64,000 bases of DNA from Bacteroidales bacterium (GTDB taxonomy: Bacteria > Bacteroidota > Bacteroidia > Bacteroidales > VadinHA17), in contig JAIVHO010000031.1 of assembly GCA_020201035.1 (NCBI GenBank), positions 230,122 through 294,121 of the forward strand, given 5' to 3'. Made by a program: the position numbers and the translations under genes. Within the stretch, counting starts at the first letter, position 1. Each line of letters begins with the position of its first letter. This document shows, piece after piece, positions 10,405 through 56,146 of this stretch. A model generated the notes under the pieces. The model ran no database searches and had not been told where the DNA came from. It saw only the letters and a program-made list of their open reading frames with translations.

Positions 10405-11511
10405 ATGGCAGCAATTGTTTCAGAAATATTAAGGAAGGGTGAGCTATCGAAAGAGGATATTATTTATCTTCTGGGTGCTGATGGCGATGACTTGAGAGAA
10501 CTCTTCAGAGAAGCAGCACGGATCAAACAGCAATACGTCGGGAACAGCGTATACTACCGGGGACTGATAGAATTCTCAAACATATGCGCCAAGAACTGCT
10601 ACTATTGCGGCATACGAAAAGGCAACAGGGAGGTAAAGAGGTACAATATAACTGATGATGAGATAGTTGCTGCAGCACAATTTGCCCTCGACAACAATTA
10701 CGGATCCATTGCCCTGCAGGCGGGTGAACTTGAATCGGATAGCTTCACATCCAGGATTACAGGCCTTCTGAAAAGGATAAAACTTATATCAGAAGGGAAA
10801 CTGGGTATTACCATCTCGCTCGGTGAACAGACAATGGAGGTCTACAAAGAGTGGTTTGATGCAGGTGCTCACAGGTACCTGCTGCGTATTGAATCCTCAG
10901 ACAGGGAGCTATATAAAAAAATACATCCGCAGGATGATCTGCACAGTTTTGACAGAAGGACAGAGTGCCTCAGGGATCTGCAAAAGGCAGGATACCAGAC
11001 AGGAACAGGGGTGATGATTGGTCTTCCGTTCCAGACACTCTCCAATCTGGCAGAGGATATACTATTTATGAGGGATATGGATATAGATATGGTTGGCATG
11101 GGACCCTATATAGAACATGAAAACACCCCCCTGATACATTACAGGGACCAGCTGCTGCCCATAGCTGAAAGATTTGATATGTCACTGAAGATGATTGCCG
11201 TCCTGAGAATTGTTATGAAGGATATAAATATTGCTGCGGCCACGGCTCTCCAGGCTATTGACCCAATGGGCCGTGAGAAAGCAATCAGGATAGGAGCCAA
11301 TATTATTATGCCCAATATTACACCCGGAATGTACCGCGACAGCTACAGTCTGTATGAAAATAAACCATGTACCGACGAGGCTGCCGACGATTGCAGGGGA
11401 TGCCTCGAAGCCAGACTAAGCATGGCGGATGCAGATATCGGTTATGGGGAGTGGGGCGATTCAAAACACTGGCACGCGCGGCAACAGGAGGATAGGGATA
11501 CCGCTAAATAA
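10405..11511 (+). CDS. hydE: [FeFe]-hydrogenase H-cluster radical SAM maturase HydE
   Basis: Radical SAM CAKNCYYCGIRKGN; overall HydE-like sequence (GLIEFSNICAKNCYYCGIRKGN, IGLPFQT). Confidence 0.93.
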   Translation: MAAIVSEILRKGELSKEDIIYLLGADGDDLRELFREAARIKQQYVGNSVYYRGLIEFSNICAKNCYYCGIRKGNREVKRYNITDDEIVAAAQFALDNNYGSIALQAGELESDSFTSRITGLLKRIKLISEGKLGITISLGEQTMEVYKEWFDAGAHRYLLRIESSDRELYKKIHPQDDLHSFDRRTECLRDLQKAGYQTGTGVMIGLPFQTLSNLAEDILFMRDMDIDMVGMGPYIEHENTPLIHYRDQLLPIAERFDMSLKMIAVLRIVMKDINIAAATALQAIDPMGREKAIRIGANIIMPNITPGMYRDSYSLYENKPCTDEAADDCRGCLEARLSMADADIGYGEWGDSKHWHARQQEDRDTAK

Positions 11512-11526
11512 ATAAAACTATAGCCT

Positions 11527-12657
11527 ATGAGACAGAAAGTACTTGTTATGGGATGTGGCCTGGTAGGCTCAGCCATAGTAAAGGACCTCGCCCCTGAATA
11601 CAGGGTAACAGCAGCAGATATATCTGGCGAAAATCTCGGAATGATAAATTCAATCGCCGGAGTTGAGGTTGTTACTGCAGATCTGTCAGATGCAGCCACC
11701 GTTAATAAGCTGGCAGCGGATCATGACCTTGTAATTGGTGCCCTCCCGGGGTTTATGGGATACAACTCGGTAAAGCACGTTATTGCAGCAGGCAAAAATA
11801 TGGTAGATATATCCTTTTTCCCGGAGGATCCGTTCGGACTGGACCGACTGGCAAAATCAAAAGGAGTAACTGTGGTTACGGATTGCGGTGTGGCACCGGG
11901 TATGGGAAATATTATTCTGGGTTATCACCATCCCAGAATGAACGTTCAGAAGTTTACCTGTATGGTGGGCGGCCTGCCGTTTAAAAGAGAGTGGCCATGG
12001 CAGTATAAGGCTGTCTTTTCACCGGCTGATGTGATAGAGGAGTACACCAGACCTGCCCGCTATATCATCAATGGCGAAATGGTGATCAGGGAGGCTCTCT
12101 CTGAGCCTGAATATGTGGAGTTTGAAAAGGTCGGTACCCTTGAAGCATGGAATTCAGACGGACTAAGGAGTCTGATTCAAACCATGCCTGTACCCAACAT
12201 GATTGAAAAAACCCTCAGATATCCCGGAACCATCGATTACCTTAGAATGCTTCGTGAGACAGGTTTCTTCAGTAACGACGAAATAGAGGTGAAGGGCGTC
12301 AGGATCAAACCAATCGATCTCACCTCGCAACTGGTCTTCCCGAAATGGAAACTTAAGGAAGGAGAAGAGGATTTCACAGTAATGAGGATTGTGGTGGAGG
12401 GTATAAATGCGGGAGTAAAGGAGAGATATACCTATAACCTTTTTGACCGATTCGACAGGGATAACGGGATAACCAGTATGGCCCGTACCACTGGATATAC
12501 CTGCACTGCCGTGGCAAACCTGATGCTTGAAGGAAGATTCAGCAGACCCGGTATCAATCCGGCCGAATATACCGGCACAGAAGATGGTAACCTTACCTTT
12601 ATACTGGAATACCTGAAAGAGAGGAATGTAATCTACAGTATGGAAAAAATCAGCTGA
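11527..12657 (+). CDS. Saccharopine dehydrogenase-like NAD(P)-binding oxidoreductase
   Basis: N-terminal Rossmann VLVMGCGLVGSAIVKDL; DCGVAPGMGN typical of saccharopine dehydrogenase family. Confidence 0.85.
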   Translation: MRQKVLVMGCGLVGSAIVKDLAPEYRVTAADISGENLGMINSIAGVEVVTADLSDAATVNKLAADHDLVIGALPGFMGYNSVKHVIAAGKNMVDISFFPEDPFGLDRLAKSKGVTVVTDCGVAPGMGNIILGYHHPRMNVQKFTCMVGGLPFKREWPWQYKAVFSPADVIEEYTRPARYIINGEMVIREALSEPEYVEFEKVGTLEAWNSDGLRSLIQTMPVPNMIEKTLRYPGTIDYLRMLRETGFFSNDEIEVKGVRIKPIDLTSQLVFPKWKLKEGEEDFTVMRIVVEGINAGVKERYTYNLFDRFDRDNGITSMARTTGYTCTAVANLMLEGRFSRPGINPAEYTGTEDGNLTFILEYLKERNVIYSMEKIS

Positions 12658-43677: not shown

Positions 43678-46600
43678 TCAGAGCTCTTTTATCCTGATAT
43701 TCCTGAACCGTACCACCGATCCGTGTCCAAGAAACCCGATATGCCCCCTATCCCTGAGGAGACCGGGGTGTTCATTATGATCCATGGTTCCGTTCCTGAT
43801 AGCATCAGAGATATCACCATCAACAATAGTTGTACCGTTGAGTATTACCCTGATTCGTGTCCCCTCAACAATTACCTCCTGGCTGTTCCACTCTCCAACA
43901 GGATTCAGGTATCCCCTCCTTGCCGGTATAACTCCATAAACCGATCCGTGGTACTGATAGGGTTCAAGCCCTGCATATACAGGAGCCGTGTTATCGAGTA
44001 TCTGAAGTTCCATTCCCACATATGCCGGATCACCGGTAATAGGGGTGCGTATGCCCAGACCGTTGTTTGCACCCGGGGTAAGCTGAAAATCGAATCTGAA
44101 GTTAAAATCATCATACTCCCTCTCTGTATATAAATTACCACCACTCCCCTCCTGAGGCCTCACAACTATTGTTCCGTTATCTGCACTGTAGGCATTCTTG
44201 TTACCTGTCCAGTTATCAAGGTCATAACCGTTAAAGAGCGACACAAACCCATCCTCCATCTCCTCAGGGGTTATTCCATATCCTGCCCTGTCAAATTTTC
44301 TTATATATATATCCCTAAAGGCCAATTCATTACCATGCGCCTGCAGCTCAACCGGACCAAACCGGAAGATAGGCCGTGACCTGTCCCAGTAGTTCTCCAT
44401 CACCACCTCATCAACAACAAGGATACCATTCAGCCATACCGACACAACCTCCCCCTTCATTACTATCCTGAAGCTGTTCCATTGTGTCACCGGATTATCA
44501 GCCACCACAAGGGGTCTGCTCTTATGTTCCTGGTTATTATAAAGGCCTCCTGATCCCACCTCCGCACCCACATCGGTGAGTGATGTGTCCCATATCTGCA
44601 CCTGCGGGGTACCCCTGAGGTATATGCCGCTGTCGCCGTTTTTTGTAATACGCCAGTCGACAAGCAGTTCAAAGTCGCCATACTCTTCCACAGAACAGAG
44701 ATTTGCACCATTCCCGCTAAACCAGATGGCGCCCCTGTCAACACTCCAGTTCTTTGTCATCTCCATGTCGGCTGCCGCCTGTTTCCCGGCAAGCTCGCGA
44801 TCTGTCATGCGTGACCGGGCAATAGGGTTTTCCACCAGTCCCTGCCAGCCATCAAGGTCACGTCCGTTGAACATTGAGACAAATCCCTCCTCGCCGGAAA
44901 TTGATGATACCCGGGCCTCAGCCCTTGCGGCCTTTTCGCTGTCTTTTAACATGCGGACAGCCTTTTTCAGAATCTCCATGGCCATTTCACCTGTGAAACC
45001 TCCCTGTTCATCCTCTCCGGGAAGGGCAATATCAATTATTATCCCTGCTGCCTCTCTGGCAATAACATCATCATTATCAAGGTATCCCGACAGCCATACC
45101 ATACCGGTGAAGCTCCTGATATCCTTCACAGCATTAATAAGCATCAGCCTCCTTTCATCCGATGTTGCCCAGGGCTCTATCCTGCGGGCAAGCAAAAGCT
45201 TCTGCTCACCTGGGATATTTCCTTCACCCACCTTCCTGCAGTATTCACTGAATGCTCTATCCTGATAACTCTTGTTTCCTGAGGCAACAATCTCATAAAG
45301 TGTATGTACTATTTCAATCTCAGGCCATTGCTCCATCAGGGAATAAATGAATTCACGTGACTCAGCATCCCCCGCCTCAAAAGCCTTGAGTATACACTCT
45401 GCCGATCTGATGTCTCCTATCAGGGGCAATGCTGCAACAAGATTTCTGTTATATCCGCTCTTTTCCACCCTCTGCGAAAAGAGCTCAGATACATTGGCCG
45501 GATTATCGGAGTATTCAACTGACCGGGCAATGGCAGTCACAACAGACCCCACTCTCTCTTCACTCCTGCTCTGCAATGCCATTGATATCAGCATCTCAAT
45601 ATTTCCCGGCCCTGCCACCCGTGGCAGGGCATCATATGCAGCATCACTGACCAGTTTATCCTGTGAATTGCAATATTGAGCCATCATAGGAAAATATATG
45701 CTTTCTCCCCCAGATGCCACAAACATGATCATGTTAGCCTTTGTTACCGGCGGGGAGTCAGCAATTGCTGCGGCAATTTTCTGCATGGCCCCACTGTCGG
45801 CAGTAAAGGTCAGTGCTTCCACTGCTGCTGACTGATCCTCGTAGTAAGGATAGGATCTCATATAATCAATAATTGTTTCAACGCTCTCCGATCCTTCCAG
45901 TCTGGCATACGCCTTAATTCCGGGAATCCTTATCTCAGGAACGGAATTAAAGAGCAGCACCGAGAGAGGTTCAGAAGCCGAGCGGTCTCCGCGCAAACCT
46001 ATCACAGCAACTATATCAGAAGCAATACCGGGAGGCATCTCCCTTACCAGTGAGCAGAGTCTTGCTGTAACTGATTCACCTGGAATTCTCCCGGCCAGAT
46101 TAATAGCGGTACGTCTTATGCTCACATCACCTGACCTGAATTCCCTGATAAGCTGACTCAGCGCCTCTTCTCCCTGATATTCAACAAGGAGAGTCAGGGC
46201 AGCCTTACGGTAATGAACCGACCCTGGTGTAAGCGGCCTCCTGAGCAGCAGCGCAGCTACCTCTGCAGGCACATCAGTATCTCCCCTCTCTCCCGCCTTA
46301 AATGCAAAATTAATCAGTGCATCCGTTTCACCGGTATAGCCTGCACCAAAACCATTCTTCTCTGCTGCCTCTCTCAGGAAATGATATGGAGCCGCACCTG
46401 TTGACCTGCTAATGGCACTTATAGCTGCACGCTTCTCATCCTGGTCTCCCCTGCTGTACCATCCCATAAGCTGCTGAATCGCACTGTCAGCAATATCCCC
46501 TGACAGGCAGTTCATTATCCCTGCCGCGCAGGACAGATTGTTATCTTCCAGCAGGGCGATCAGCTGATCCTCCACACCCGCAGTGCCTGTAGCCATCAGC

Positions 46601-47055
46601 AGTGCTGCCGAGGATTCACACATCAATTCATTCTGAATATTTTCAACTGCCAGCTGTGCCGACTGACTTCCTCCTGAATATCTAAGTTGTGCCAGCATGA
46701 ACTCTTTTATCTCAGGGAGAGCAGATCGCCTGAAGAAAGCTATACATTCAGATTCCCATATGGCAGACTGGTCTCTTCTCTCCGGAACAGAGAGATAACG
46801 TGAGTAGCTCTCCACGGCAAATCTGGCATGGGTGTCATCACCACTACCTGGAACCTTCAGCAATAAGAGTATTCGCTCCCTGCCCTGACTGCCCATACGA
46901 GTCATCTCTTTCATCTGCCTCTCCAGTTCATTACTGTTATATACCGGCATCCGGGCGAGCAGATCTGCCACTTCAGTCTCTCTGCTCCTTACATCCTGTG
47001 AAACTGCCATAGGTCCTAATATGAGCAGTGCTGCCAGCAGTAATAAATTTTTCAT
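43678..47055 (-). CDS. Secreted HEAT-repeat protein with two C-terminal DUF1080 (3-keto-glycoside hydrolase-like) domains
   Basis: EGFVSMFNGRDLDGWQG and DGFVSLFNGYDLDNWTG domain starts; each with GIYLRG/GIRTP and NSFRIVMKG/NSQEVIVEG motifs. Confidence 0.85.
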   Translation of the reverse strand: MKNLLLLAALLILGPMAVSQDVRSRETEVADLLARMPVYNSNELERQMKEMTRMGSQGRERILLLLKVPGSGDDTHARFAVESYSRYLSVPERRDQSAIWESECIAFFRRSALPEIKEFMLAQLRYSGGSQSAQLAVENIQNELMCESSAALLMATGTAGVEDQLIALLEDNNLSCAAGIMNCLSGDIADSAIQQLMGWYSRGDQDEKRAAISAISRSTGAAPYHFLREAAEKNGFGAGYTGETDALINFAFKAGERGDTDVPAEVAALLLRRPLTPGSVHYRKAALTLLVEYQGEEALSQLIREFRSGDVSIRRTAINLAGRIPGESVTARLCSLVREMPPGIASDIVAVIGLRGDRSASEPLSVLLFNSVPEIRIPGIKAYARLEGSESVETIIDYMRSYPYYEDQSAAVEALTFTADSGAMQKIAAAIADSPPVTKANMIMFVASGGESIYFPMMAQYCNSQDKLVSDAAYDALPRVAGPGNIEMLISMALQSRSEERVGSVVTAIARSVEYSDNPANVSELFSQRVEKSGYNRNLVAALPLIGDIRSAECILKAFEAGDAESREFIYSLMEQWPEIEIVHTLYEIVASGNKSYQDRAFSEYCRKVGEGNIPGEQKLLLARRIEPWATSDERRLMLINAVKDIRSFTGMVWLSGYLDNDDVIAREAAGIIIDIALPGEDEQGGFTGEMAMEILKKAVRMLKDSEKAARAEARVSSISGEEGFVSMFNGRDLDGWQGLVENPIARSRMTDRELAGKQAAADMEMTKNWSVDRGAIWFSGNGANLCSVEEYGDFELLVDWRITKNGDSGIYLRGTPQVQIWDTSLTDVGAEVGSGGLYNNQEHKSRPLVVADNPVTQWNSFRIVMKGEVVSVWLNGILVVDEVVMENYWDRSRPIFRFGPVELQAHGNELAFRDIYIRKFDRAGYGITPEEMEDGFVSLFNGYDLDNWTGNKNAYSADNGTIVVRPQEGSGGNLYTEREYDDFNFRFDFQLTPGANNGLGIRTPITGDPAYVGMELQILDNTAPVYAGLEPYQYHGSVYGVIPARRGYLNPVGEWNSQEVIVEGTRIRVILNGTTIVDGDISDAIRNGTMDHNEHPGLLRDRGHIGFLGHGSVVRFRNIRIKEL

Positions 47056-47080
47056 ACGTTTAAAATTTTGTTAATTCTGT

Positions 47081-48349
47081 CTAAATGCTCCAGGGTGGTC
47101 TCATTGGCTGGAAAATCATCCTGTTGGCACCTTCATCATCAATAAACCTCTGATTCACCGGGTCAAACTTAAGGTTGCGTCCAAGGCGCAACGCCGTAAT
47201 CCCAAGATTAACCAGGGTGCACGACCGGTGACCGTTAACCTCATTCAGTGCAAATTTCTGTCTGGTACGCACCGATTCACTGAAACTGGTTATTTCAGGC
47301 TCAGGATCAGGCAGAGACTCTGCCAGCCTCTCAATATCCATGATATCTGACCTGAATCCCTTAAATATTTTTCCATCTGGCCCCTCAATATAAGCAGCAT
47401 CGCGGTCCATGTTGGCACCATCAAGGATTATCCTGCATCCGTCAGCATAAGTATATTCAATCCTGCGCCATGAGCCTACTGCATCATAGTGTTGCTGGGG
47501 TGCATCAATCTCAACTGAAACAGGTGAAGTATGATCTTTCCCGAGCATATACTGAACCGGATCAAGGTAGTGCTGCCCCATATCCCCCAGACCTCCCCCG
47601 TCGTAATCCCAGTATCCCCTGAAATTAGCGTGAACCCTGGCTTCATTATAGGGCTTCACAGGGGCCGGACCAAGCCACATATCATAATCAAGCCACTCCG
47701 GAACCTGCTGCGGTTCAAGGTTATGCTTCCCGCTCCAGTAAAATTTCCAGTCGTAACCGGTAACCCCGCTTACTGTCACTTTCAGTGGCCAGCCAAGCAC
47801 CCCGCTGTCAATTATCTTCTTAAGAGGCTTAACAGTTGTGCCCAGGCCGTAGAACTGATCCTTAAACCTGAACCAGGTATTAAGCCTGAACATTGCACCG
47901 TTTCTCCTGACTGCCTCCACAACCTTAATGCCTTCTCCTATCGTTCTGGTCATTGGTTTCTCACACCATATATCCTTGCCCGCCTCTGCTGCCATAACCG
48001 ACATAATTCCATGCCAGTGTGGTGGAGTGGCAATATGAATAATATCAATATCAGGCCTCAGGATCATCTCCCTGAAATCGGTGAACAGTGGAACACCTTT
48101 CCCTGTAATTGAGAGTGCTGATTCAAGATGTTTGCGGTCAACATCACACATGGCAACCACTCTGGTACCCTCATACGGTATATGGCCTTTCCCCATACCC
48201 CCCAGACCTATTACTCCTTTTGTAAGTTGTTCTGATGGTGCTGTATAGCCTTTTCCGCCAAGAACATGCCTTGGCACCACCGTTAATGCAAATGCTGCTG
48301 ACGCTGATTTCCTCAGAAAACTTCGTCTGCAATATCCTTCTGATTTCAT
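47081..48349 (-). CDS. Gfo/Idh/MocA-family oxidoreductase with Tat-like signal
   Basis: RRSFLRKSASAAFALTV leader; GLGGMGKGHI; CEKPMTRT. Confidence 0.92.
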   Translation of the reverse strand: MKSEGYCRRSFLRKSASAAFALTVVPRHVLGGKGYTAPSEQLTKGVIGLGGMGKGHIPYEGTRVVAMCDVDRKHLESALSITGKGVPLFTDFREMILRPDIDIIHIATPPHWHGIMSVMAAEAGKDIWCEKPMTRTIGEGIKVVEAVRRNGAMFRLNTWFRFKDQFYGLGTTVKPLKKIIDSGVLGWPLKVTVSGVTGYDWKFYWSGKHNLEPQQVPEWLDYDMWLGPAPVKPYNEARVHANFRGYWDYDGGGLGDMGQHYLDPVQYMLGKDHTSPVSVEIDAPQQHYDAVGSWRRIEYTYADGCRIILDGANMDRDAAYIEGPDGKIFKGFRSDIMDIERLAESLPDPEPEITSFSESVRTRQKFALNEVNGHRSCTLVNLGITALRLGRNLKFDPVNQRFIDDEGANRMIFQPMRPPWSI

Positions 48350-48387: not shown

Positions 48388-48499
48388 TAAATGGTATTAT
48401 CCCCCAGGGCAAGCCCTGGACCTTTCTTTCCGGGGCAAGCCCCGGGGAATTTAACCACACCCTCTCGTCCGCCGAAGCGGAACGCGAAGGTGGATTAAA
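48388..48499 (+). repeat. 112-bp interspersed palindromic element, copy 4
   Basis: Two substitutions relative to copy 1. Confidence 0.97.
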
Positions 48500-48848: not shown

Positions 48849-48875
48849 AAAGGGTAAGCCTTCAGGCCTACCCTC
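48849..48875 (-). terminator. Rho-independent terminator for the 48895-55779 operon
   Basis: Minus strand agggtaggcctgaaggcttaccctttttttt: stem plus 8 T. Confidence 0.8.
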
Positions 48876-48894
48876 CATAATTAGAATCAGTTAA

Positions 48895-49527
48895 CTATTT
48901 GAGCAGATCAAGTCCCTCCAGTGCAGAGCTTCCGTTAGGTGTATTGAGCAGTGCCTTCTGAAAAAGGACACGTGCCTCCCGTAAATTTCCTGCCCGGTAA
49001 TTTGTCCATGCAAGCATTGAAAGGGCATCATAATCGAAAGGATACAGGTTAACAACTTTCTGAAAATATTTCATTGCATTTGTATAATCTTCCCTTCCGT
49101 AATAGATAAGTCCCAGCCGGTGCATTGCCACCGAGTTATTGGGGGTTATCTCCAGAATCTTCTCATACTGTTCAATAACCTCCGACCAGTTGCCCATAGC
49201 CGCAGCGGGATAAACATATCCGAATCTTGACTCAACCGAATAGGGCATAAGGGTAATTGCCCGGCTGTAGTATGCCCTGGATTCTGTGAAACTTCCCGTG
49301 AGATAGGTTAACCATCCCAGCCTTAAATTAATCTCATATGACTGTTCGCTATATATATTCCTCAGGGATTTGGCTGCCTCAGTGTAGTTCCCTGTTGCCT
49401 CATCAATATAGCTCTTCTGGAAAGCATCTCTTATTTCGGTAAAAGTCTGACTCTCTGAGCTTAGAGAGAACAGAAAAAATAATATCAGGAGCATTGCTCC
49501 CTTTTTTACAGATTTTAAAATAGCCAT
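48895..49527 (-). CDS. TPR protein with signal peptide
   Basis: Several TPR units (AMHRLGLIYYGREDYTNAMKYFQKVVNLYP). Confidence 0.85.
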   Translation of the reverse strand: MAILKSVKKGAMLLILFFLFSLSSESQTFTEIRDAFQKSYIDEATGNYTEAAKSLRNIYSEQSYEINLRLGWLTYLTGSFTESRAYYSRAITLMPYSVESRFGYVYPAAAMGNWSEVIEQYEKILEITPNNSVAMHRLGLIYYGREDYTNAMKYFQKVVNLYPFDYDALSMLAWTNYRAGNLREARVLFQKALLNTPNGSSALEGLDLLK

Positions 49528-50849
49528 GATATACCTCCTGTTATTGATATTGATTTATAATTTGTTTCATTATTATCCGGAACCTCTGATCCGGCCGGAA
49601 TAAATGCTGTATAACCTGAACTGTACCCTGCACCTCCGTAAAGCACCAGACCGGATTTACCAGTCTGAAGTGAGACTATTCCTGAGAACAGATAATCTGT
49701 CCTGTTTACAGAGTTGAAAACTACGGATCCCGACCGGTGAATATAATTCCTGAGATCACCTCCAAGAGCTGTAATATCCAGACTGACCCTGCCTGCAACC
49801 ACAACCCCCAGATATCCTCCGTAAACCATACCACTCTCCTCCCCGGTGGTAGCTGAAGGCGACTTGACCGCAGCCGAGGCTCCCATGCTGAGAGTCTTAT
49901 TTCCCAGAGGCATTATCTTCAGAGTGCCTCCTGCCTGGAGTCCCGACCCGGATGTAAATCCTGCCCACGATGCTTCTCCTGACAGCGAAATAAATCGTGT
50001 CGTTGAGCGTACTGCCAGTGTGGTGATAATATTATGTTCTCTTACCGTGTACAGCCAGGCTCCCGGGGTCATCCCATAGCCGGTGGTAATATTCACCAGT
50101 GAGTATCCAGCCGTCAGATAATGGATTGACGGCTCAAATGTAATCCCTGACCCGGAGGCAAGGGAAAGAGCCGCATATAACTGAAACTGGTTTACCCTGT
50201 GTTCAGGGTAGTCGTAACTGTAGCCACCGTCATTATATACCAGCAGATTGTTTTTTTGCAGATATGTTGCGGCAAGTGTAAGGGCACTTCTGTCTCCTGT
50301 AATTCCTGACCAGGCAAAGGTGGTCCCTGAATACCAGAGCGGAATAATCAGGTTGCCACTATCTCCGTAACCCTCCGCCAGGGAGGGTGCTGATACCAGT
50401 TCCTCGCTGCGGGCATTATGAAAAAGGTATTCACCCCACATCCTGTTTTTTGCGGTTGAATCGATACCGTAAAGTTTTCTCTGATCGTACGGCATATCTG
50501 CGGCAATAGCAGATGCTGTAAGTGGTTCTCCTGCATAGAGCCATGAATAGTACAGGTATGATGTGGCCACTGGATCACCTTCATTAAACTCAAGTGCTTT
50601 TCTGAAATAGGGTATCGCATAGAGATACTGTCGCCTTTCGAAAAGGCTTATCCCGATCCTCATTCTCATGTAGTAATAATCATATCCCAGAGAGAGAGCT
50701 CTCCTGCCCTCACCTGTGAGACTGCGCCAGTCACTCTGTTCATACATGGTATATGTAAGTGAGTCATAGTAGAAAAAGCTCTTCTTTCCCTGTGCACCCG
50801 CAAGCAGTGATATCACTGCAAAAAGTATTATTAAACCTGCTCTCTGCAT
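49515..50849 (-). CDS. TPR N-domain plus predicted outer-membrane beta-barrel
   Basis: Signal peptide; TPR (FERRQYLYAIPYFRKALEF); amphipathic strands; C-terminal ...GGISWLF. Confidence 0.7.
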   Translation of the reverse strand: MQRAGLIILFAVISLLAGAQGKKSFFYYDSLTYTMYEQSDWRSLTGEGRRALSLGYDYYYMRMRIGISLFERRQYLYAIPYFRKALEFNEGDPVATSYLYYSWLYAGEPLTASAIAADMPYDQRKLYGIDSTAKNRMWGEYLFHNARSEELVSAPSLAEGYGDSGNLIIPLWYSGTTFAWSGITGDRSALTLAATYLQKNNLLVYNDGGYSYDYPEHRVNQFQLYAALSLASGSGITFEPSIHYLTAGYSLVNITTGYGMTPGAWLYTVREHNIITTLAVRSTTRFISLSGEASWAGFTSGSGLQAGGTLKIMPLGNKTLSMGASAAVKSPSATTGEESGMVYGGYLGVVVAGRVSLDITALGGDLRNYIHRSGSVVFNSVNRTDYLFSGIVSLQTGKSGLVLYGGAGYSSGYTAFIPAGSEVPDNNETNYKSISITGGISWLF

Positions 50850-53023
50850 TCCGCCATGATATTAATTCCCTTCCCTTTAATACTTATCCTGGATATTCCG
50901 GATTCAGTTATTACTATCTCAGATCGTGTTTCACGCGTAACAAAGCCGGCTACCCTGTTTGTGTGCACCGATTCCAATACTATCCGCGTGGGAGAAATTT
51001 CACTGTCAGTACTTTTGTAAAATAGCTGGTATTCAGACCTGACAAACAAGAAGAAAGGAGCGACAAAATCCTGAAAGAACTGCAGCCACCGTCGTACATA
51101 CAGATTAAGCGGATACCTGTCATGCAGTTTCAATCCGGGATAAAAGCCCTGCTGAACCCTGTAGAGGGACAGATGCACCCAGTATAGAAAATCGCGCCTA
51201 CCGCCGTCATAATGCCTGAATATCAACATGTTGCCATCATTCACAAACCATGACACCGATCCGGTCTCGCTGCACCGCAGATACCGGTTATTATACTCAT
51301 CAACAGCTGCCTCCCAGGTTTCATCCATCTCTTTCCCGTTAACCGAAACCCTGAACCGGATATCGCGTCCCGGAATAAATTTAAAAGCACTCTTTACAAG
51401 ATCATTAACGACGGCATTGGAAACCCTGTCACCCTCAGCCGGTGCATAATAATTTTTTAATGAGAACGTACTCTCCCCCTCATGATGGATATAGTAGCTG
51501 AGGGGGTATTTTATTGTACGCGACCCTATCCATGGTGTTGCCTGCATCTGGAAATGGAGATGAGGATATGGTGAACGTCCTGAGTTGCCGCAATGTCCTA
51601 TCACCTCACCCTGAACAACCTTGTCGCCCTCATTTACTGTAACAGAACCGGCACGCAGATGACTGATCTTTGAATAGAGATAATCGGCATGTTTGATTAT
51701 CACTGTGTTGCCCCAATTTTTCACCAGGTTAACCTCACCCGTAATATTATCCTTTATTCCGTTTTCGACATACTCCACCACTCCGTCGGCAACAGCAATC
51801 ACCGGCTTGTCAAAGCAATAATAATCAGAAAGTTCAAGCCCTTCACCCTTAAACTGCAACCCTTTGGAATCTGTAATTACAAAATCCCATGCATATTTCC
51901 AGTCACCCTTATGAGTATACTCACCCTCATATCCCTGTGATACTTCCCAAACTCCAAAGAAAGGGAGCTTTACCGGAGTAACTCCGTATCTGAACCTGTA
52001 CAGTTCATTAACATATGAATAGAGATTTCTCTCAGGTGAGTTCTGCTGAATAACTACCTCGGCAAGGGAGGGAGAGGGCCTGGTTCTGAACTTAAGCACA
52101 TAGATAAAGAGCAGCACCACCAGATTAAAGGGAAGGGCAAACAGCGGCAGGCTGAAAATTGCAAATACCGACGAGAGGCTTATCGTTAGCAGGGCCACCA
52201 GCGGAACCATCAGTACAACCCAGAAATAGGATCGGTATGAAGGAATAACAAAAAACCCTCCTATTGCAATAGATGTAAGAATGTAGTTAAACCCGATATA
52301 ACTGTAACTGAAATCGGATATTCCCGTACCTGTTATTCCATAAAAAAGATAGGCCGTAAAGAATCCCAGCAGGGAGAGAGAAAATGATATACGGGAGTGA
52401 AACAGGAGTCCGGCCGCAATAATCATCCCGGCAAGGGTATTGTACTGAAAAAGAATGGCTCCAAGGCTTATAAAATAGATCCTGAGCGGTCTTGCGATCC
52501 CTATGCTGTTCCACCACTCATATACCGCCACCATACGGCCACCTCCCAGGATATACATTTCATTAATTGTAAATATACCTCTTTCGCTTATGCCCAGGGT
52601 GGTGAACTCTCTTGTTGCCAGTGTAACCATCCATGCGGCCAGAATAAACGGGACGCTCAGGTAAGGGAGGTTATACTTTCCTATTATCCCCTGCATTGCC
52701 ACAGAGATAAAAAATGTAAAAATGGCCGACAAAATGATTATCAGAGTCAGAACAATTCCCGGCTGAAAATAGATTCCCAGTCCCAGTCCCACCAGCAGGC
52801 TGTTGAACCCATACAGCCCTTTTGCCACGGTATTACGGTCAAACCCCATGGCAAACCCGGTCAGAGAAGTTACCAGTACTGCCAGCAACCCGTAAATACC
52901 TGCATAGAGATCGGTAAAGGAGACACCCAGCAACATCAGGGCAAACACTCTGTTGTCAGAAAAGAATATCTGTGAATAGCTGTTCAGTATACTCTCGCCA
53001 AATTGTCCTGTTGTCCGTTTCAT
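50831..53023 (-). CDS. Urea-transporter-like membrane domain fused to M23/LytM-like peptidase domain
   Basis: N-terminal multi-pass region (GFDRNTVAKGLYGFNSLLVGLGLGIY) UT-like; C-terminal H(T)KGDWKYAWDF ... GHCGNSGRSPYPHLHFQM M23-like. Confidence 0.8.
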   Translation of the reverse strand: MKRTTGQFGESILNSYSQIFFSDNRVFALMLLGVSFTDLYAGIYGLLAVLVTSLTGFAMGFDRNTVAKGLYGFNSLLVGLGLGIYFQPGIVLTLIIILSAIFTFFISVAMQGIIGKYNLPYLSVPFILAAWMVTLATREFTTLGISERGIFTINEMYILGGGRMVAVYEWWNSIGIARPLRIYFISLGAILFQYNTLAGMIIAAGLLFHSRISFSLSLLGFFTAYLFYGITGTGISDFSYSYIGFNYILTSIAIGGFFVIPSYRSYFWVVLMVPLVALLTISLSSVFAIFSLPLFALPFNLVVLLFIYVLKFRTRPSPSLAEVVIQQNSPERNLYSYVNELYRFRYGVTPVKLPFFGVWEVSQGYEGEYTHKGDWKYAWDFVITDSKGLQFKGEGLELSDYYCFDKPVIAVADGVVEYVENGIKDNITGEVNLVKNWGNTVIIKHADYLYSKISHLRAGSVTVNEGDKVVQGEVIGHCGNSGRSPYPHLHFQMQATPWIGSRTIKYPLSYYIHHEGESTFSLKNYYAPAEGDRVSNAVVNDLVKSAFKFIPGRDIRFRVSVNGKEMDETWEAAVDEYNNRYLRCSETGSVSWFVNDGNMLIFRHYDGGRRDFLYWVHLSLYRVQQGFYPGLKLHDRYPLNLYVRRWLQFFQDFVAPFFLFVRSEYQLFYKSTDSEISPTRIVLESVHTNRVAGFVTRETRSEIVITESGISRISIKGKGINIMAECREQV

Positions 53024-54372
53024 TCACTCTTCAGATGGGTTGGAACAATCTCATTATGTGTTACTGTATCTACAGTTTCACGTTCTCTTATTATATGAGG
53101 TTTACCAGCTTCGTCAATCATCACTACAGCAGGCCTGAGAGTGATAAACTGCATCCACTGTGTCATATTATAGGCACCTACCCTCTTAACCACGAAATTG
53201 TCGCCACGCCGCAGAAGAGGAAAAGCCACTGATTCCCTCAGGACATCAATATTCATACAGAGAGGCCCGTAGATTGTGGTCTCCTCAAGATGATCCGATG
53301 TGTGCTTTGCCGGATAGAACTCATGCTCATACCAGAATGATGTAAATAATATATTGACTCCGGCATCTATAATTGTTGACCGCCTGCCGTCTGAAAGTCT
53401 CTTGTTGGCCAGTACTGTTCCCAGCAGGTAACCGGCATCATCAACCAGTGCCCGTCCTGTCTCAAGAATCAGCAGGGGAAGTCTGCCGGGGTTGATCTCC
53501 GAATTGAGGAGAGCTCCCGTAATTGCGTTTGCATAATCATCAAATGAGGGTACAGTATCCCTTCCCGGGAGATATGCTCCCTTAAGGGTGTTCCGTGAAG
53601 CAAAGCCACCGCCCATATCAATATACTTAATTGATGTTTCATATTTGCGTTCAATGCGTACTGCAAGGTCTGCCAGCTTTGATGCTGCCACTGCGTAAGC
53701 ATTTACAGCGAGCATGTAGGTGCCTATGTGGGTATGGAGACCTGTGAGCTCCAGCTTGCCTGTCATCATTATCCTGTTGATTGCATCCCATGCCTCACCG
53801 TTTTCATAGTTAAAGCCGAAGCGGTCCCACATAGGATAGATACCTGTATCCATATTTATGCGTATTGCCACCCGAGGCTTCTTTCCAAGGGTTTCAGCCA
53901 CCTCGGTAACCATATAAAGTTCATCAAAATGATCAATATGAATCAGGGAGTTGTTCTCTGTTGCCTTTACTATATCGTCCCGACTTTTTTCAGGTCCGTT
54001 AAAAATTATCTGTGAGCCTTTGATCCCGTTTGAAAGCGCCTTATCGTATTCAAATCCTGATACAACCTCTGCCCACGAGCCTTCACTGTGGTATGTCCTG
54101 CATACAGCATCCAGGTAATTGGTTTTATATGACCATGCAAACTGCACCTCCGGATACCTGCTTCTGAAAGCTTCCAGAGCCTCCCTGTATGTTCTGCGGA
54201 TACTCTTTTCTGAAATAACAAACAGGGGTGAGCCGAAATCCGTTATCAGCTCCGCTACCGGCACCCCGTCAATATGTGTCACCGGTTCAGCCTGTACCGG
54301 CATGCCAAATTTACTCGGGACACCCGCTCTGATTTTTTTAATATATGGCCTTTCAAATTCTTTCTTTTCCAT
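53020..54372 (-). CDS. Fold-type III PLP-dependent decarboxylase (DAP/Orn/Arg decarboxylase-2 family)
   Basis: FAWSYKTNYLDAV (PLP Lys), HTHIGTY, DMGGGFASRN, LETGRALVDDAGYLLG, GAYNMTQ. Confidence 0.87.
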   Translation of the reverse strand: MEKKEFERPYIKKIRAGVPSKFGMPVQAEPVTHIDGVPVAELITDFGSPLFVISEKSIRRTYREALEAFRSRYPEVQFAWSYKTNYLDAVCRTYHSEGSWAEVVSGFEYDKALSNGIKGSQIIFNGPEKSRDDIVKATENNSLIHIDHFDELYMVTEVAETLGKKPRVAIRINMDTGIYPMWDRFGFNYENGEAWDAINRIMMTGKLELTGLHTHIGTYMLAVNAYAVAASKLADLAVRIERKYETSIKYIDMGGGFASRNTLKGAYLPGRDTVPSFDDYANAITGALLNSEINPGRLPLLILETGRALVDDAGYLLGTVLANKRLSDGRRSTIIDAGVNILFTSFWYEHEFYPAKHTSDHLEETTIYGPLCMNIDVLRESVAFPLLRRGDNFVVKRVGAYNMTQWMQFITLRPAVVMIDEAGKPHIIRERETVDTVTHNEIVPTHLKSE

Positions 54373-54488
54373 CTCTTACGATTATTGTGTTGTATTTAAT
54401 AAATTGTCCCTCTGCTTTTTATAGCCTGGCTATTACCCTGGCCTGCTCTAATACTGATACCGGCATAAAGCTGGTCCAGGTTAATCCG

Positions 54489-55535
54489 TCACAGTTCACC
54501 CTCCATTGAGAGTTTCTCAAACTCTTTTATATCGGTAATAAGATCATAAGAGTACCTTATAAATACCTTGCCTGTCTGATATGTCTTAAAAGGCTTTACC
54601 TCCATCCCCAGAGCCAGTTTCACAAGTGCCTCAGGCAGATTTTGTCCTGCCCCAACAGCAAGGTAGACCCATGCAGGTATCCTTGGATTTATCTCTATCA
54701 GGAAAAATTTGTTTTCCTCAGATCTTATAAGCTCCAGCTCCATCCCTCCCTTCCACTTTGTTGCATTGATAAGGTCATGTGTCAGGTCCAGCATCCGTTT
54801 ATCATCAAGCGTTACACCAGACCATGCCTTTCCCTTGTCAGTTATATACTGCTTGCGCATCGGCACCGCCCCTATTGTATTACCCTCACCATCCCCAAGG
54901 GCCACAACATTTACCTCTGTCCCCCTGACAAACTCCTGAATAATCACCGGAAGGCCCCATTTGGCAGCAACCCGGGAAAAATATATCCCGGTCTGCTCCC
55001 TGTTATAGGCAATATAGGCGTCATAATACCTGCCCTTTACAACGAGCGGATACTCAAAATCATCACGCAGCGAATCAAGGTCTGACTGCGACACCACCTC
55101 CTTGCTGAAAGGAACATTTATCCCGTATTTTTTTCCGAAAGAGGGTAGATTGGACTTCTGCCTCTCTTCAAACTGCTCTATGCGAGGAAGAAATGTTTTG
55201 ATCCCCGCCTCCCTGAGCTGTTGCTCAGCTTTCATAAAAGCAAGCAATTCAGCATCAAAATTAGGAATCAGTACATCTATCATCTCGGTTTCATTGATCT
55301 CAAGCACCTTCCTTATCAGGATCTCCGCACCCTCTGAGGGATATGGAATCCGATAGGTATGATCAACTATATCATGCATATAAATCGCAGGCTCCATACT
55401 CTCGTAGGCAAGTCCCACGATCCTGGGATCAAACAGCGCCGAATCACGTATACCTCTGATTACAGGAACACCAGGACCCGGATTATCTGTATTATTAAGC
55501 CCGGTCAGGGCCACTGTAACCTTAATCCTGTTCAT
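54489..55535 (-). CDS. ATP-grasp enzyme
   Basis: YPLVVKGRYYDAYIAY, PVIIQEFVRGTEVNVVALGD, FFLIEINPRIPAWVY. Start MNRIKVTVALTG (55535) preferred over 55592. Confidence 0.85.
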   Translation of the reverse strand: MNRIKVTVALTGLNNTDNPGPGVPVIRGIRDSALFDPRIVGLAYESMEPAIYMHDIVDHTYRIPYPSEGAEILIRKVLEINETEMIDVLIPNFDAELLAFMKAEQQLREAGIKTFLPRIEQFEERQKSNLPSFGKKYGINVPFSKEVVSQSDLDSLRDDFEYPLVVKGRYYDAYIAYNREQTGIYFSRVAAKWGLPVIIQEFVRGTEVNVVALGDGEGNTIGAVPMRKQYITDKGKAWSGVTLDDKRMLDLTHDLINATKWKGGMELELIRSEENKFFLIEINPRIPAWVYLAVGAGQNLPEALVKLALGMEVKPFKTYQTGKVFIRYSYDLITDIKEFEKLSMEGEL

Positions 55536-55779
55536 CTTCCAGAAGTCTGAATTGCCGCAACATGGATGCAAAATCAAAGAAATACTTTTCAAAATCGTTT
55601 CGTCCTACATTATAAATGCTTACCATGTAATCGGTAATTTCACTTAACTCCTTTCCTTCATTCATAAGTCGTACAACCTCCCTGGCCTCCTGATTCAGAG
55701 AGTAGGAGTCGCCCGTTGTAGGGTCAAATACAAACCCTGACTCACTAAGGGCTATGTTCTTTTTCAACTTCATATTCAT
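55522..55779 (-). CDS. PqqD-like small protein
   Basis: KKNIALSESGFVFDPTTGDSYSLNQEAREVVRLMNEGKELSEI; overlaps the ATP-grasp start. Confidence 0.75.
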   Translation of the reverse strand: MNMKLKKNIALSESGFVFDPTTGDSYSLNQEAREVVRLMNEGKELSEITDYMVSIYNVGRNDFEKYFFDFASMLRQFRLLEDEQD

Positions 55780-56034: not shown

Positions 56035-56146
56035 TAAATGGTATTATCCCCCAGGGCAAGCCCTGGACCCTTCTTTCCGGGGCAAGCCCCGGGGAATTTA
56101 CCCACACCCTCTCGTCCGCCGAAGCGGAACGCGAAGGTGGATTAAA
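56035..56146 (+). repeat. 112-bp interspersed palindromic element, copy 5 (with extra 13-bp 5' duplication at 56022-56034)
   Basis: taaatggtattat occurs twice in tandem at the left end. Confidence 0.97.

Follow-up and report, generated by a model that had tools for sequence, protein, structure and literature searches.

What do six tightly packed genes make that join a PqqD-like protein and an ATP-grasp ligase to a fold-III PLP decarboxylase and three envelope proteins, and what does the PqqD-like protein bind? The genes lie on the minus strand at 48895-55779 of the window, by which we mean the whole 64,000-nucleotide stretch of Bacteroidales bacterium DNA analyzed, from an assembly of 2.83 Mb in 76 contigs. 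An initial annotation of this DNA had described six overlapping minus-strand open reading frames (ORFs) and named their families. The overlaps (14 bp for PqqD/ATP-grasp, 4 bp for decarboxylase/UT-M23, 19 bp for UT-M23/TPR-barrel, and 13 bp for TPR-barrel/TPR) and the Pfam scores (ATPgrasp_Ter 40.3, Orn_Arg_deC_N 102.1, UT 213.3, Peptidase_M23 65.0, and TPR 79.7) agree with it. The ATP-grasp and decarboxylase genes are separated by a 116-nt gap and do not overlap; the ATP-grasp was called from ATG, and the ORF list holds an alternative TTG start 57 nt upstream. The terminator proposed to close the operon is present and is the strongest of 8 candidates, a number no higher than the 8 that shuffled sequences lead one to expect by chance. 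The features are:

55522..55779, minus strand: PqqD-family protein (discrete RRE), 85 aa, with leader-contact positions N29 and Y66 (PF05402, conservation, PDB profile matches)
55582..55584, minus strand: PqqD Tyr66 codon, which switches with the first residue of the decarboxylase tag (covariation and alignment to the TbiB1/TfuB1 ERD Asp)
54489..55535, minus strand: ATP-grasp ligase, 348 aa, PRK12767/CarB-like (Pfam and curated profiles, conservation)
53020..54372, minus strand: fold-III PLP decarboxylase, 450 aa, FigC/FslC-like, with invariant K83, C372, and D376 (profiles, alignments, structure model)
54304..54357, minus strand: leader-like decarboxylase tag, residues 6-23, FERPYIKKIRAGVPSKFG (184/184 operons, codon use, low pLDDT)
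50831..53023, minus strand: UT-M23 fusion, 730 aa, with urea-transporter fold, LytM/M23 domain, and C-terminal beta domains (Pfam, structure model)
52091..53023, minus strand: UT channel domain, residues 1-311 (Foldseek 3k3g, charge pattern)
51494..52003, minus strand: M23/LytM domain, about residues 341-510 (Pfam, invariant residues, structure match)
49515..50849, minus strand: signal peptide, TPR, and predicted outer-membrane beta-barrel protein, 444 aa (barrel by inspection of sequence)
48895..49527, minus strand: predicted secreted TPR protein, 210 aa (Pfam TPR; signal-peptide-like N terminus by inspection)
48849..48876, minus strand: candidate intrinsic terminator, 12-bp stem and T run (hairpin scan)

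The inverted repeat CCAGGGCAAGCCCTGG flanks the operon at 48404-48419 and 56051-56066, within what appears to be a longer repeated intergenic element. Past the terminator, 43678-48349 holds, by the look of the sequence, a 1125-aa protein with HEAT repeats and two DUF1080-like domains and a Gfo/Idh/MocA-like oxidoreductase; these genes are probably a separate unit of sugar metabolism. The genome has a second PqqD gene (62 bits; locus L261, in the region of G000:C63:2865-3071), followed by a P-loop-kinase-like ORF (SGRSGCGKST) and a short signal-peptidase-like ORF, a locus that appears to resemble an HPr-rel-A type system.

The operon is a discrete conserved unit across Bacteroidota. In a comparison with 60 relatives, orthologs of its ATP-grasp stand at 54-73% identity, well apart from all other matches at 30% or less. 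Gene order was compared in three sets of loci: 20 that represent roughly ten families of the order, 80 whose organisms are named, and 20 taken phylum-wide. The succession PqqD, ATP-grasp, decarboxylase, UT-M23, and then barrel/TPR is kept as far as the contigs reach, on differing neighborhood backgrounds. Across an even sample of 396 genomes of the phylum, excluding the window's own, ATP-grasp and UT-M23 co-occur in 33/33 cases and neither occurs alone (E < 1e-100 for both; UT-M23 full-length or near full-length). The remaining UT-M23 profile matches were M23-only, and the single other ATP-grasp match (5e-31) was a paralog. Within the order, 121 of 295 sampled genomes carry the operon, which is also found in the cultivable Algoriphagus, Cyclobacterium, Ancylomarina, and Labilibaculum. 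Because the same gene order recurs in many families and the ATP-grasp/UT-M23 co-occurrence is perfect, the operon goes beyond a chance assembly. The initial annotation had read the six genes as one functional unit, to be doubted if their homologs rarely co-occurred elsewhere, and the neighborhood comparison across Bacteroidota sustains that reading.

The barrel and TPR genes vary between clades, which we count against our best explanation. In distant clades, the TPR-barrel is replaced by a stand-alone predicted barrel (roughly 275-320 aa), which has no Pfam name, is read as a barrel by inspection, and lies beside the TPR gene or after UT-M23. A few loci carry an insertion or a broken frame (e.g., L024, L040, L108, L118, and L121), and in L064, L079, and L101, downstream genes are missing or cut though the contig continues. 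In L118, L121, and L030/L079, operon genes (decarboxylase, ATP-grasp, UT-M23) are broken or truncated by decay or assembly error. We did not find a universal seventh gene; AraC-type HTH, DUF2202, and DUF4405 proteins accompany some loci only. Five loci (L024, at 10944-11777, L029, L031, L033, and L035) have an inserted DUF4405 membrane protein separating PqqD from ATP-grasp, DUF2202 proteins are encoded close to the upstream side in about 12/96 loci, and AraC-type HTH proteins lie upstream in many. A plasmid collection yielded only distant ATP-grasps (best matches below 30% identity) and no sign of plasmid carriage there. The ATP-grasp of one genome (G429), a paralog in a different cluster with sugar epimerase-like and oxidoreductase-like ORFs, was set aside.

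The first ~25 residues of the decarboxylase are not aligned to its PDB relatives LysA and FigC, to which matches start at residue 29 or later. This extension contains a tag with the consensus [F/Y]-E-[R/K]-P-x-[I/L/V]-x5-[G]-x3-K-[F/Y]-G in all 184 distinct operons. Its first residue is Phe in 81 and Tyr in 103, with no other residue observed, the sixth is Ile, Leu, or Val in 184/184, and the final Gly is present in 182/184. The Pro at position 4 and the Lys at position 16 are invariant in 184/184, it being understood that the search pattern itself demanded the Pro and, in its first form, Lys or Arg. The strict full pattern matched 94 of 96 decarboxylases and, among the other ORFs of 200 aa or longer in those loci, 0 of 927. 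The Pro and Gly residues of the tag are each encoded by all four of their codons, indicating that selection acts on the protein. AlphaFold2 modeled the body of the decarboxylase with high confidence and residues 6-18 with pLDDT below 50, so that a strongly conserved tag is predicted to be disordered by itself, a combination that fits a docking motif.

The tag matches the RRE leader motif YxxPx[L/I/V]. Discrete RREs recognize [Y/W]xxPx[L/V/I/A/F/Y] (PMC13381572), and the leader motif tolerates hydrophobic replacement of its first residue (PMC12710340). Outside this motif lies K21-FG (residues 21-23, 54304-54312), where the invariant Lys precedes F/Y-G in nearly all operons, and the conservation of this element goes beyond what docking alone explains.

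The operon PqqD passes PF05402 (24.7 bits against a cut-off of 23.4), and its best PDB profile matches are TbiB1 and TfuB1, the B1 RREs of lasso peptide systems. In the related LppB, D70 makes a hydrogen bond to the Tyr of the leader and N33 one to its Pro kink; mutation of either reduces or nearly abolishes binding. The Asn corresponding to N33, N29, is present in 183/183 PqqD proteins, residue 66 aligns in the profile alignment with the ERD-motif Asp of TbiB1/TfuB1, and the spacing from N29 to residue 66 is 37, equal to that of N33-D70 in LppB. Where the tag begins with Tyr (103 operons), PqqD residue 66 is Asp in 74, Asn in 28, and His in 1; where it begins with Phe (81 operons), residue 66 is Tyr in 62, Ser in 14, Ala in 4, and His in 1. 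Thus, the position of the Tyr-binding Asp is occupied by Asp/Asn in 102/103 Tyr-tag operons and is replaced in 81/81 Phe-tag operons, a pairing concordant in 183/184; the window's own operon combines a Phe tag with PqqD Tyr66. Asp or Asn thus stands at residue 66 only where the tag offers a hydroxyl, the chemistry predicted by the solved complex.

In a scan of 5,552 column pairs between the tag and PqqD/ATP-grasp, PqqD residue 66 and tag residue 1 reached a mutual information of 0.97-0.98 out of a maximum of 0.99 and an APC-corrected z of 13.7; the second pair, at 7.5, involves the same PqqD residue. On a tree of four genes (ATP-grasp, decarboxylase body, UT-M23, and TPR), four residue switches fell on supported branches and all were matched, although the sign test (p 0.125) cannot reach 0.05 with so few. 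This tree was used in place of one from ATP-grasp only, which gave 9 changes of each trait and only 2 pairs on supported branches. The case for predicted docking rests on the near-perfect concordance together with the published contact, not on tree statistics.

The initial annotation had PqqD binding a separate peptide substrate. PqqD, ATP-grasp, and peptidase are common RiPP parts, and PqqD might accordingly serve a ribosomal precursor, nearby or elsewhere, with the tag a decoy or coincidence. Such an ordinary RiPP cluster is very improbable here: we detected no recurrent small ORF bearing the tag motif within 1.5 kb of the operon in 101 loci, the single meaningful match (in L118) being the tag of a decarboxylase whose frame is broken, and covariation ties PqqD to the decarboxylase tag. 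From the motif match, the residue-66 covariation, and the search for a precursor, we consider it very likely that PqqD docks on the N-terminal tag of the decarboxylase itself.

The PLP lysine (K83) and the catalytic residues Cys372/Asp376 are retained in the decarboxylase. Its scores fall below the cut-offs both for the N-citrylornithine decarboxylase FslC (NF041039; 233 bits, cut-off 500) and for diaminopimelate decarboxylase (TIGR01048; 228.7 bits, cut-off 297.9), and its closest solved structure, by structural match, is FigC (7kh2). Arg343 of LysA is replaced by Thr344 (FigC T327), the acidic residue beside the catalytic Cys by Met373 (FigC M355), and Y348 corresponds to FigC Y331. The roles of the FigC residues in distal-group recognition and citryl contact are described in PMC7857480. 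The decarboxylase shares with FigC these substitutions, by which a free distal amine or carboxylate is no longer recognized, and in the alignment the citryl-contacting H357/R387/N389 of FigC become I375/Q405/M407. With the hallmarks of FigC present, those of LysA absent, and the citryl contacts replaced, the substrate is probably an amino acid that the ATP-grasp has amidated on its side chain, with an acyl group other than citryl. The proposal that the enzyme decarboxylates a free diamino acid gives way to this closer resemblance to N-citrylornithine decarboxylase.

The ATP- and metal-binding residues of the ATP-grasp are invariant (e.g., E281 and N283 of EINPR), and this ligase would be the obvious source of the amide. 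No PDB match was found with phmmer, and a profile search of the PDB returned only CarB and distant ATP-grasps, which give no hint of the substrate. The family assignments nonetheless uphold the combination of amide-forming ligase, fold-III decarboxylase, and envelope proteins that had been proposed. A fold-III decarboxylase beside UT domains could also mean that the operon follows an established pathway (DAP/lysine, carboxyspermidine, or arginine-to-agmatine/urea) coupled to a urea channel. However, the decarboxylase retains neither the Arg that binds DAP nor the acidic residue next to the catalytic Cys, and the genome encodes two further PF02784 proteins, one matching much more strongly than the operon decarboxylase, which is therefore not the sole candidate for lysine or polyamine synthesis. 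We regard a known route of this kind as extremely improbable, in keeping with the earlier view that the operon matched no recognized pathway, a view that orthology of the ATP-grasp/decarboxylase pair to a carboxyspermidine or DAP/lysine route would have overturned.

UT-M23 gave a good structure model (pLDDT 88.6), with a UT domain of dvUT-like fold (Foldseek 3k3g, TM 0.83 by target) and a LytM domain that was also matched. The UT domain has the Pfam UT assignment and the fold, and scores 124.9 bits against the urea transporter profile TIGR03441, below its cut-off of 274.6. In the second UT repeat, the Glu of the dvUT GEV motif, a position that presumably has a filter role, aligns with Ala. The zinc ligands and catalytic His of the M23 domain are complete (H371, D380, H455, H488, and H490, invariant in 45 proteins). 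Net charge in the UT domain is +1.1 at the N terminus, -1.9 in the linker between the halves, and +2.9 after the last transmembrane segment, the other loops being mixed. In the canonical UT orientation, both ends are cytoplasmic. The charge pattern and this orientation together provide moderate evidence that the M23 domain is in the cytoplasm.

Well-studied M23 enzymes act on peptidoglycan, and UT-M23 is followed by predicted secreted TPR and barrel proteins. An M23 domain facing the periplasm, in an operon that modifies or remodels peptidoglycan with its enzymes supplying a small amine for the wall, would fit these facts. The positive UT flanks and negative half-linker, which would place both ends in the cytoplasm, make this unlikely, and the predicted cytoplasmic M23 argues against the cell-wall modification that had been suggested. 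The barrel and TPR proteins have signal-peptide-like N termini by inspection, and the TPR-barrel protein is fast-evolving (39% mean column identity). We infer that UT-M23, barrel, and TPR serve export, the peptidase trimming or releasing substrate on the cytoplasmic side. Our literature search returned nothing relevant on UT-M23 fusions or PqqD/ATP-grasp/decarboxylase operons.

Taken as a whole, the explanation that we somewhat favor is a cytoplasmic enzyme complex held by an RRE adaptor and served by an export route. PqqD would grip the decarboxylase tag as lasso/PQQ RREs grip YxxPx[L/I/V] leaders and may thereby bring the decarboxylase to the ATP-grasp ligase. Judged from active-site residues, the ligase would amidate an amino acid (probably a diamino acid) on its side chain, after which the FigC-like decarboxylase would strip the alpha-carboxylate to give an N-acylated amine; the chances of this chemistry being right are about even. 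The UT domain and the outer-membrane barrel with its TPR partners might then export the product, a small neutral molecule, and the cytoplasmic M23 might trim or release substrate at the channel mouth. These last two are the weakest steps, and export through the UT domain and barrel is put forward tentatively. The operon probably makes and exports a small amide-amine by a pathway not previously described.

The conserved K21-FG also admits a reading in which the tag is leader and substrate at once: PqqD presents it, the ATP-grasp loads a small molecule on K21, the decarboxylase processes this in place, and the M23 fused to the channel frees the product (or tag). The tag Lys is present in 184/184 operons with F/Y-G in nearly all, although YxxPx[LIV] suffices for RRE binding; the combination of ATP-grasp, RRE, and peptidase resembles a RiPP set; and the M23 is predicted to be cytoplasmic with all its catalytic residues. 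The LysW pathway follows a similar logic, with amide formation by the ATP-grasp LysX, a PLP step, and release by a metallopeptidase. The operon shares this logic and differs in that no LysW-like carrier gene was seen, a decarboxylase stands for the aminotransferase, and a membrane-bound M23 for the M20. We found no precedent for a decarboxylase with a tag of this kind, the ATP-grasp resembles PRK12767 and is no graspetide ligase, and K and FG could merely contact the ATP-grasp. An enzyme-borne carrier is therefore improbable; if true, it would be a ribosomal-leader-guided route to a small metabolite without a separate precursor peptide.

What is new is the conserved leader-like tag on the decarboxylase that covaries with PqqD residue 66 across 184 operons; a combination with an enzyme as RRE partner was not found described in the literature searched. 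RREs serve as a class-independent marker for RiPP clusters. If the partner of an RRE is an enzyme tag, the RRE recognition module doubles as a protein-docking adaptor, and enzyme docking would account for some discrete PqqD-like proteins away from RiPP machinery. If the preferred reading of an RRE-held enzyme complex is true, it opens up an uncharacterized biosynthesis-and-export pathway with hosts in cultivable genera.

Two kinds of known system come closest: the RRE-leader module and, among fold-III decarboxylases, the FigC branch. With the RREs of lasso peptide, LPP, and PQQ systems (TfuB1, TbiB1, LppB, and PqqD), the operon PqqD shares the fold family, the N and D/N contact positions, their spacing, and the YxxPx[LIV] ligand motif. 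The ligand here, by contrast, would be the N terminus of a folded enzyme and not a RiPP precursor, the Asp is absent from the Phe-tag variant, a loss that tracks the tag, and the operon has no lasso cyclase, PqqE, or precursor gene. The decarboxylase resembles FigC/FslC of rhizoferrin biosynthesis in its nearest structure, in the specificity-helix Thr and Tyr, and in the Met beside the catalytic Cys, whereas the citryl-binding His/Arg/Asn are replaced, a leader-like tag is added, and the partner enzyme is an ATP-grasp instead of an NIS synthetase. UT-M23 has the complete folds of dvUT and of LytM/M23 endopeptidases (DipM and EnpA), with the M23 catalytic residues present, but fuses both in one protein with extra C-terminal domains and a predicted cytoplasmic M23.
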